Part shown: one piece after another, positions 13,975 through 22,325 of the stretch
Position numbering within the stretch: position 1 is the stretch's first letter
Layout of the letters: every line of letters begins with the position of its first letter
Source of the DNA: Polytrichum commune
Lineage: Eukaryota; Streptophyta; Polytrichopsida; Polytrichales; Polytrichaceae
Reading direction: 5' to 3'
Assembly (NCBI GenBank): GCA_950295325.1
Contig: OX485803.1
Location: 31,308,001-31,372,000, forward strand
Length of the DNA stretch: 64,000 bases
The notes under the pieces: generated by a model
Told to the model about the DNA's origin: nothing
Seen by the model: only the letters and a program-made list of their open reading frames with translations
The model's database searches: none
Translations under genes and position numbers: made by a program

Positions 13975-14600
13975 TTCATGGTATTTAGTGTCACATACAC
14001 TATCTGCGAAGGGCCTAAACTAGATGCCTAGTGGTCTCAAATTGTCATGCCCACTAATTGCCAATACGATTCCATTCCTCAACATAAGTAATTCCTTTAA
14101 GTGAAAAAGTATCTACATAATGACATTTAGAGTAGCACATTGGGATACGTTAGATGATAGTCCTATGATTTAGTATGCAAAGGGAAGATATTTTTGAGCA
14201 TTCTAATACAAGTGTCAGGTGCATACATCTTAATATACAAGGGGAAGATATTTTTGAGTGTACTAATGGCAAGTGTCAAGTATTTGCATCTTAGTATGCA
14301 AGAGAAATATATTTTTGAGCATGCTAATGGCAAGTGCCATTTGTGTATACTTTAGTGAACTTGTAGACCATCGTGTAACATAGACATGCACCTCATAACA
14401 CTATTGAACATGTTCATGCCAAGATATTAGTAAGTGCACTTGAATGCCAAGTATCATGAGGTGACAATTATGGTGAAGTTGATAATCATCAATGTAACCT
14501 AGCATACGCCTTGAAATAGGGTAAGTGACACTATCAGGCATGTAATACTAAACACCATAAACGGTGTACTACACTTGACATGGCTGCATCCAAGAGTTCC
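13975..14600 (+). mobile_element. Family A non-autonomous element, most complete copy
   Basis: The left end 'atggtatttagtgtcac' is roughly inverted at the right end ('actaaacaccat'). Inside, a unit of about 65 bp ('tatgcaagGGGAAGATATTTTTGAGC..ctaatgGCAAGTGTCA') is repeated three times between 14,170 and 14,360. Related copies lie at 20,050-20,440 (same strand) and 3,880-4,305 (opposite strand). Confidence 0.7.
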
Positions 14601-20049: not shown

Positions 20050-20440
20050 TATTTGGGATATGTTAGATGATTGTCTTGCATTTTAGTATGCAAGGGGAAG
20101 ATATTTTTGAGTGTACTAATGGCAAGTGTCATGTGTTTACATTTTAGTATGCAAGAGGAAGAGATTCTTGAGCATACTTAATGGCAAGTGTCACTTGTGT
20201 ACATTTTATTGAACTTGTAGACCATCGTGTAACGTAGGCATGCACCTCATAACACTATTGAAGATGCTCTGCCAAGATATTATTAATTTCACTTTGAATG
20301 TCAAGTGTCAAAGAGGTGACAATTATGGTGAAGTTGTTAATCATCAATACAACCAGCATACGCCTCGCAATAGGGTAATGTGACACTATTACGCATTTGA
20401 CACTAAATACCATTAGCCGTGTAGTATTGTACATGAACAA
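20050..20440 (+). mobile_element. Family A element, 5'-truncated copy
   Basis: Matches 14,140-14,580: 'tagtatgcaaggggaagata', 'gaacttgtagaccatcgtgt', 'gcacctcataacactattga' and a right end 'tgacactaaataccat'. It lacks the first 165 bp of the 13,975 copy and has two internal units rather than three. It ends about 200 bp beyond the RNA ligase stop codon. Confidence 0.75.
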
Positions 20441-20647: not shown

Positions 20648-21712
20648 TTACTGCCGATATTTGATGAGATACGCACTGCTAATGGTCTTGAACGAAACTC
20701 TTGGTTCCATCTGCGACCGCACAACAATTCCCTCTTGTGGATTCTCTGTTCCCGGGTAATTTTTCTCGGCCGCTTTTCGGAGCAATTCGTCGAGATCGTA
20801 CTGGAAGTTGTCGCCCGTCTCCACCACATCCACCATCTTCAGAGACTCTCCCTTCTTTTGTTCTTTGTTAAGATTCTTGATTGCGGCCTGGAGCCCCTCG
20901 AATTGCAAGAAACGTTGGAAATTTTTGTCCCAGACGTTGAACACGCGGAACTCGAGTCTCTTCAGGTTCAACAGATTCTTCAGCAAACCAGGCCCCACAA
21001 TCTCTCCTTGGACCACCAAGTGCTGGTACTTCACCATCTTCCCTTGCAAATCGTAGATTTCCGCGACCCGCCAATACTCGGAGCTCGGCTTGCTCGCGAC
21101 GAAGTTGCGTGACAACGCCTTGAACTCGTCCCCGACGTAACCGTAGGTGGCGGAAGTCCCATCGTACTTCAAGGTAATATAGTACGGCCGGCCTTGGAGG
21201 CTCTCCAAGAGCTCCATGTTGCTCTGGACCCGGGGCTCGCCGGTCTTCGGAGGCCCGCCCGGGAGGGCAGACTCCGCTCTGGCAGACCTCCTGTGCGGGC
21301 CGGCAGCAACGCCTGAGTGCAGAGCTATCTCTGCGACGGCTTGCACGAGATCCTCCTGGGGGTCAAGCCGCTTGGTCACCCCCAGGAGCCCAGTGACATC
21401 TTCCCCTTCCATGAACTCTATGTCCAGCAGCGGCGGCACGTCGCGCAGGTGGCGAAACAGCCCCTGCGTCACGACGTCACCGATCTTCACAGTCCTAACG
21501 TGACGAGTCTCCAGGGCCTCCGTCCATGGCGCAGACGGAGGGAGGATGCTATCGATCTCAAAGTACACTCCCATGTCCCCTTCTCGGCTCTTGAGTGGCA
21601 CAATTACTTCCCAGCCCCCAACCTGACCCAGATAAATCGGCGGCGCGTCCTCGATATGGTGCTTCCGCACCGGCCCGAGCCTCACGAGCTTCGCCAATGT
21701 CCGGGAGCTCAT
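20648..21712 (-). CDS. ATP-dependent RNA ligase, DRB0094/Rnl5 type, intronless
   Basis: One uninterrupted minus-strand frame of 354 codons (ATG at 21712, TAA at 20648). The first 150 residues match the extra N-terminal domain of the DraRnl/Rnl5 group (OB-like in Deinococcus; VGGWEVIVPLKSREGDMGVY here). The nucleotidyltransferase part is complete: upstream KTGEPRVQSN (residues 156-165), motif I KYDGT with the lysine to be adenylated at K182, motif Ia SRN (201-203), QGEIVGPG (235-242), motif III EFRVFN (254-259), motif IV EGIVVR (327-332) and motif V FKTIS...LIKY (341-352). This family seals RNA nicks using ATP; its cellular role in plants is unknown to me. The gene is visibly GC-richer than its surroundings and has no introns, unlike the other genes in the window. 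Its 5' UTR begins in a tandem repeat. The frame is intact, which argues for a functional gene. Confidence 0.9.
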   Translation of the reverse strand: MSSRTLAKLVRLGPVRKHHIEDAPPIYLGQVGGWEVIVPLKSREGDMGVYFEIDSILPPSAPWTEALETRHVRTVKIGDVVTQGLFRHLRDVPPLLDIEFMEGEDVTGLLGVTKRLDPQEDLVQAVAEIALHSGVAAGPHRRSARAESALPGGPPKTGEPRVQSNMELLESLQGRPYYITLKYDGTSATYGYVGDEFKALSRNFVASKPSSEYWRVAEIYDLQGKMVKYQHLVVQGEIVGPGLLKNLLNLKRLEFRVFNVWDKNFQRFLQFEGLQAAIKNLNKEQKKGESLKMVDVVETGDNFQYDLDELLRKAAEKNYPGTENPQEGIVVRSQMEPRVSFKTISSAYLIKYRQ

Positions 21713-21718
21713 GCTTCC

Positions 21719-22325
21719 AACACCGATTGAGAGAGGAGCTCGATTGTGAAATCAAGTCGCGGTGATGGATCGGAGTGCTGCTGATGATCTTCTCAGCAAA
21801 ACAAAACCTGCCTCGATCCTAACTCTCTGCCAAAGGTGAAGCGTCTCTCATTCACGCGAGCATGCTTGCAACAACACCGAGTTCCAACCGAGACAGGAAC
21901 TCGAGCGTGACGCCAAGTCAGAGTGCTACTAATGATCTAAGTCTATGTCCAAGGGTGAAGCCTCCTCATTCACCGCTGTATGGCCACCGGTACGGTTACA
22001 ACACCCAAGAGCTCGATCGTGAAATCAAGCGGAGTTTGGATCGGAGTGTTGCTAATGATCGATCTTCTCAACAAAACAAACCTGCCCCAAGTTTACCTAT
22101 GAGCCTAAGTCTATGTCCAAGGGTGAAGCGTCTCACATCCACGCTGCCACCGATATCCTTGCAACACCGATCGAGAGAGGAGCTCGATCGTGAAATCAAG
22201 CTTAGTGGTTGGATCGGAGCGTCGTCAATTCAATGATCTTCTCAACAGTACCCGCCCCGGGTTTACAGACAAGCCTAAGTCTATGGCCAAGGATGAAGAG
22301 TCACTCTCTCTTCTCAACAATATCG
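21719..22325. repeat. Tandem repeat, about four degenerate 130-165 bp units, at the 5' end of the RNA ligase
   Basis: Units start near 21,719, 21,871, 21,999 and 22,163. Shared blocks are 'caacaccga', 'gagctcgatcgtgaaatcaa', 'ttggatcggagtg', 'aatgatcttctcaacaaaac', 'cctaagtctatgtccaaggg' and 'tgaagcgtctc'. The CATGCTT(G/C)CAACA block recurs at the ligase start codon, so the array probably arose from the ligase leader. A 124-codon plus-strand frame (21,862-22,236) runs through the repeats; coding is possible but unsupported. Confidence 0.85.

Follow-up and report, generated by a model that had tools for sequence, protein, structure and literature searches.

A single-copy Rnl5-type RNA ligase gene in a Polytrichum commune chromosome, probably acquired from the phage or bacterial side of the family

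The ligase locus and its genomic setting

The gene described here lies in a 64,000-nucleotide stretch of the Polytrichum commune assembly GCA_950295325.1 (contig OX485803.1, positions 31,308,001 to 31,372,000), referred to below as the window. It occupies window positions 20648–21712 on the minus strand and consists of 354 codons from ATG to TAA, open throughout. An initial annotation of the window had reported the same intact frame; the strand is added here. The single exon encodes a 354-residue protein of the Rnl5 type of ATP-dependent RNA ligase. The protein is matched by Pfam, by the Naegleria ligase NgrRnl and by the profile phrog_968, and the frame is therefore not a chance one. The start methionine aligns near the family start, as seen in phage and bacterial proteins, so that no exon is apparently missing, which agrees with the earlier description of an intronless gene.

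The gene is single-copy. A search of the 408-Mb assembly gives one significant protein match, the second (E 7.4) being at chance level. Of the 15 contigs (among 64) whose lengths were considered, seven are large, at 42–78 Mb, and the locus is at 31.3 Mb of the 77.9-Mb contig C1, which begins with a TTTAGGG telomere array. Host sequence lies close by on both sides. A dispersed repeat at 20053–20425 ends 222 bp from the stop codon; 39 further copies, distributed over all seven of the large contigs, are 84–89% identical over approximately 340–380 bp (40 of 3652 candidates were scored), and one of these lies in the window at about 14140–14571. The latter overlaps a 61-bp tandem repeat. On the other side, a piece of the 5′ flank at 22078–22151, 365 bp from the start codon, has partial copies at 15 further sites, which are spread over all seven of the large contigs and are 78–91% identical. 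A contaminant join would need to fall within these gaps of 222 and 365 bp. The ligase gene is physically linked to host DNA, and its assignment to a plant chromosome in the initial annotation holds.

Directly upstream of the start codon, in the promoter or 5′ leader region, there is a CpG-rich series of degenerate direct repeats with a spacing of about 170 bp (21711–22302). One copy of the repeat reaches the ATG, and part of the repeat unit recurs across the genome. These repeats may be a duplicated promoter or leader.

Also in the window are genes for SYF1 and a PHD-finger protein, among others. Within its last repeat domain, the frame of SYF1 ends at position 95 of 397, and the gene therefore continues in further exons. 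No Rfam family at the gathering threshold and no tRNA was found within the window. Elsewhere in the assembly, the plastid contig C8 (146,561 bases) carries rbcL, trnR(CCG) and what we take to be accD in a row, a plastid gene order that occurs in bryophytes and some other non-seed plants. This order points to a bryophyte-like plant and speaks against a grass.

Domain architecture and conserved residues

Rnl5 ligases are defined by a distinct N-terminal OB-type module followed by a nucleotidyltransferase domain, without a C-terminal appendage. The Pfam RNA_ligase family PF09414 matches the plant protein with 2.2e-18 (67.4 bits, cut-off 27), and the PHA02142 OB-fold domain PF21189 matches residues 18–86 with 2.1e-8 (34.9 bits, cut-off 27). 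The phage RNA ligase profile phrog_968 covers residues 2–351 (6.9e-35). NgrRnl is the sole significant sequence match in the PDB (2.9e-23, residues 20–353). Taken together with the structural model discussed below, the profiles place the OB-type module at residues ~1–116 (21365–21712) and the nucleotidyltransferase domain at residues 151–354 (20651–21262), all on the minus strand. Between them, the model and the alignment place a linker at residues ~117–150 (21263–21364), with a predicted helix at 118–132 followed by a low-confidence segment at 136–148. In a ten-protein alignment, none of the nine other members has so long a linker.

The full set of ligase motifs named in the initial annotation is present, including the upstream block KTGEPRVQSN (residue 156). 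The others are KYDGT (182), SRN (201), QGEIVGPG (235), EFRVFN (254), EGIVVR (327) and FKTISSAYLIKY (341), and nucleotidyltransferase motifs I, Ia, III, IIIa, IV and V can all be assigned. The alignment identifies Lys182 (codon at 21167–21169) as the predicted AMP-accepting nucleophile, equivalent to Lys170 of NgrRnl.

An AlphaFold model was built from 26 sequences. It has a mean pLDDT of 86.8 and a pTM of 0.81, residues 136–148 of the linker being the sole segment below 50. Structure comparison gives NgrRnl entries as the top 13 matches, with Z scores of 33.0–34.4 over 316–323 residues at 2.3–2.9 Å. The best superposition (Z 34.4, 322 residues, 2.5 Å, approximately 28% identity) spans residues 1–354, and Foldseek gives E 3.3e-26 for the same pair. 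This match over the whole length marks the plant protein as having the Rnl5 architecture, and together with the PF21189 match it bears out the distinct N-terminal OB-type module. The seven NgrRnl residues listed as mutated in PDB titles (K121, R149, K170, D172, E227, E312 and K326) are all kept, as K114, R161, K182, D184, E237, E327 and K342 respectively, once the numbering of the PDB chain is corrected for a shift of one residue.

Members of the Rnl2, or T4 Rnl2-REL, family have a C-terminal domain after the nucleotidyltransferase domain. The next fold found after NgrRnl is T4 Rnl2 (Z 17.7), but the match is to the catalytic domain alone (residues ~151–352). The plant protein ends two residues beyond its last helix (346–352), with no domain following the nucleotidyltransferase domain, and it lacks the C-terminal domain that marks the Rnl2 family.

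Relatives and origin of the gene

By tblastn, the plant ligase matches 304 phage records and 15 plasmid records, the top-listed places being 30.5% and 29.6% identical, respectively. A scan of viral contigs with the single sequence gave no closer relative. Two alignment scans of IMG/VR gave at least 543 and at least 567 relatives, of which 80 were kept from each, with a best tblastn identity of 38%. A scan of genome contigs gave one partial gene. Among 398 genomes of the phylum of the genome carrying that partial gene, six matched (the starting genome included): three nearly full-length, one over about two thirds and two short. A sheep-rumen Clostridia MAG (L004, 3001–3231) has a frame that matches the OB module alone (~83 positions), with 40% identity to the plant ligase; the search reported no adjoining catalytic half.

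A phylogenetic tree, as suggested in the initial annotation, was built in two versions. For the quick tree, 95 rows were reduced to 80 at >80% identity. For the careful tree, four long or odd rows (L115, L116, L117 and L077) were removed and 171 rows were reduced to 81 at >60% identity. The partial sequences L004/L113 and L118 are in neither tree; L163 is a 218-residue fragment, L039 is truncated and L126 has an uncertain start. In the careful tree, the plant ligase falls in an 18-row set together with 17 viral contigs (96/83). The nearest row is L034, at 42% identity. L034, L035, L033, L036, L123 and L163 form a seven-row group with the plant ligase (92/67), and an eight-row group has 89/94; at these values any immediate sister is tentative. 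A branch supported at 99/95 separates the side with the plant ligase (31 rows) from 50 rows that include NgrRnl. The branch of the plant ligase is long, at 1.59, and the bootstrap was not fully settled; the two trees concur on the neighbourhood of the plant ligase. The collections behind the tree are of viruses, plasmids and prokaryotes, with NgrRnl as the sole eukaryote, and it is because of these collections that viral rows dominate.

The closest relatives have some phage context. In L034 (968–4241), a phage block holds a polynucleotide kinase, a T4-Rnl1-type ligase, an Rnl5-type ligase and a deoxynucleotide kinase in a row, and two different RNA ligases are thus encoded side by side. L033 and L035 have some phage-family genes as neighbours, while the one neighbour of L036 that was tried had no phage-family match.

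On the basis of this placement among the available sequences, the reading that we favour is that the gene encodes a working Rnl5 ATP-dependent RNA ligase, that the plant or an ancestor acquired it horizontally from the phage or bacterial side of the family, and that it is now chromosomal. We consider this probable as a whole, and the transfer itself as favoured rather than proven. Horizontal acquisition had been one of two origins put forward in the initial annotation, and the position of the ligase among viral contigs, apart from NgrRnl, speaks for it while falling short of proof. Bacteria or fungi were named there as donors; among the viral, plasmid and prokaryotic sequences compared here, the closest relatives are those in viral contigs.

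A less likely possibility is that the gene did not come directly from bacteria or phage, but by way of another eukaryote or a giant virus with a phage-type copy. When viral structure models are ordered by E-value, the ligase of the giant virus Catovirus CTV1 comes second, with 31% identity across an alignment of 254 columns, and since this ligase is also a structural match, such a carrier stays a candidate. Against it, the relatives in viral contigs are closer, at 42% compared to 31%, although these identities were computed with different aligners and the tree does not include Catovirus.

The other origin put forward was retention of an old gene, that is, an ancient eukaryotic Rnl5 gene that descended vertically and was lost in most other plants. 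NgrRnl is a eukaryotic member with the same architecture, and the long plant branch is what would be expected of an old isolated lineage. However, a tree in which the plant ligase and NgrRnl are forced into one clade is 42.9 log-likelihood units worse and is rejected (p-AU 0.0105), on a tree with one eukaryotic row. Vertical descent is thus disfavoured, and we regard it as improbable. The absence of introns is weak evidence here, since in native light-harvesting (LHC) genes of this genome, too, a single long exon holds most of the coding sequence.

The favoured reading includes a functional enzyme, and it must accommodate the fact that the plant ligase is among the most divergent members of the family in sequence, with its active site kept. 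The initial annotation assigned it to the DRB0094/Rnl5 family. The Rnl5-type fold and catalytic residues uphold the Rnl5 part of this. The NCBIfam equivalog TIGR02306 (RNA_lig_DRB0094) gives 60.2 bits, below its cut-off of 151.15, and the protein is therefore not filed as a TIGR02306 equivalog. Eight of ten comparison proteins pass the cut-off, including NgrRnl (188.6), L034 (165.9), L035 (180.9) and L033, while L114 (143.3) and L014 (125.8) also miss it. Twenty-four columns have a constancy of 95% or more among the 80 remaining tree rows, and the plant ligase keeps 21 of them; the share kept is smaller in five of the 80. The corresponding figures are 38 of 44 at 90% (seven of the 80 are lower) and 53 of 72 at 80% (three are lower). 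The near-constant columns that it has lost are S82T, D158G and Q244L, and the OB motif is changed from the family consensus RGQxSQGL to GDVVTQGL. The low profile score and the long branch may reflect fast evolution, a shifted function or decay. That the copy is decaying, or has been repurposed and has lost RNA ligation, would fit that score and branch, as well as the loss of D158 and Q244 and the altered OB motif, but 354 open codons, intact catalytic residues and a confident full-length model speak against this, and we regard it as improbable.

Base composition does not bear on the origin. The markedly higher GC noted in the initial annotation is real, at 0.57 for the gene (GC3 0.73) compared to a median of 0.40 for 1-kb windows. 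A CpG-rich stretch of ~20.4–22.3 kb, comprising the gene and its 5′ flank, has a CpG o/e of about 0.8–1.1, compared to a 1-kb window median of 0.38. However, native LHC exons have a GC of 0.58–0.59, a GC3 of 0.74–0.77 and a CpG o/e of 0.72–0.81 in all eight examined (from 58 matches, the eight all belonging to one cluster on contig C5). The contrast was therefore rejected as a mark of foreign DNA, since native exons share the same GC and GC3; the CpG o/e of the ligase gene itself, 0.97, is somewhat above theirs. On C5, 14 light-harvesting (Chloroa_b-bind) matches of equal E-value lie within 95 kb (1751760–1846160). Codon usage was also tried as an indicator of origin and is uninformative: the ligase gene correlates most with phage L034 (0.83), followed by native LHC (0.63), L035 (0.59), the ligase-domain gene on contig C6 described below (0.53), SYF1 (0.42) and L033 (0.32), and these values fail to discriminate.

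Contamination or an assembly join might be suspected from relatives that are viral, bacterial and one protist, and from GC and CpG values unlike those of the flanks, but it is very unlikely for a single-copy gene well inside a 77.9-Mb contig, 222 bp from a repeat present on all seven large contigs and 365 bp from host repeat sequence on the other side, with a GC3 equal to that of native genes.

Proposed function and significance

The activity, substrate and role given here for the plant ligase are inferred, as is its donor. Lys182 would attack ATP to give a ligase–AMP intermediate. The AMP would then be passed to the 5′-phosphate at a nick, which the OB module may help to hold, and attack by the 3′-OH of an RNA strand would close it. 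Nick sealing by Rnl5 ligases needs RNA on the 3′-OH side. The enzyme would likely work in the cytosol or nucleus, rejoining structured RNAs such as tRNA or rRNA that stress or nucleases have broken.

Other enzymes might provide the ends to be joined. A second RNA-ligase-domain gene of the genome lies on contig C6 (12499903–12502317, minus strand). Its large exon encodes a DSP phosphatase domain of the ‘Swiss army knife’ type (8e-58), a P-loop kinase-type domain and an RNA_ligase domain (1.1e-29), and it also gives a weak match, under the cut-off, to the end of a 2H domain. Sixteen phage records match it in part, none over 80%. This is probably a eukaryotic Swiss army knife (SAK) RNA-repair protein, and it could heal RNA ends.

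The ligase may be compared with several known systems. NgrRnl of Naegleria gruberi (PDB 5cot, 5cou and the 6vt series) shares the OB module and nucleotidyltransferase domain without a C-terminal appendage, but the plant protein is only about 28% identical, has a longer linker and is on the opposite side of the tree. The nick-sealing DraRnl (DRB0094) of Deinococcus radiodurans is the namesake of the family and has the same domain order, as judged from the TIGR02306 profile, whose cut-off the plant ligase does not reach. Deletion of rnl reportedly sensitizes D. radiodurans to radiation. The phage ligases of phrog_968 are matched over residues 2–351, and L034 is the nearest row, but there the ligase belongs to a phage block beside a polynucleotide kinase and an Rnl1-type ligase, whereas the plant copy is a lone nuclear gene. 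The plant tRNA ligase RLG1/TRL1 also carries out ATP-dependent RNA ligation, but as generally described it has a different architecture, with end-healing domains of its own. The Rnl5 ligases described to date are bacterial, viral or from single-celled eukaryotes. We found no plant Rnl5 ligase in the literature searched, of which coverage was partial, and one may already be in print.

Bdelloid rotifers, as described in PMC10809525 and PMC11258130, offer a parallel of a stress-tolerant multicellular eukaryote that has gained microbial RNA-ligase genes, although these are animal genes and the likeness is at the level of RNA ligases rather than of subfamily. PMC10809525 reports that both radiation and desiccation raise the expression of bdelloid RNA ligases, the two that are predicted transfers appearing solely in the radiation set; PMC11258130 reports RNA-ligase genes up under a fungal pathogen, with no enrichment under desiccation. 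In view of these reports, a stress or anti-ribonuclease repair role for the plant ligase is no more than a reasonable guess. More speculatively, we suggest that the plant ligase came from an RNA-repair cassette of a phage, in an event separate from the eukaryotic NgrRnl lineage, and may work with the SAK protein in a stress RNA repair separate from tRNA splicing by RLG1, as a plant counterpart of microbial counter-ribonuclease repair; this larger proposal is possible but tentative.

The finding is ordinary in that the enzyme is of a known kind and the plant group is already reported to be rich in microbial genes, many such genes being ascribed to bryophytes in PMC12454661. It is unusual in that an Rnl5 ligase whose sequence groups with the phage side of the family is found in a plant nucleus. 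By this reading an RNA-repair enzyme has probably passed from microbes to the plant, which would add a second RNA-sealing route besides tRNA splicing in a group of plants whose RNA may be broken during desiccation or when microbes attack. The ligase is genetically testable, being the product of one single-copy, intron-free gene. It would be a further case of microbial gene uptake by bryophytes, and an unusual one, with its nearest relatives found in viral contigs.
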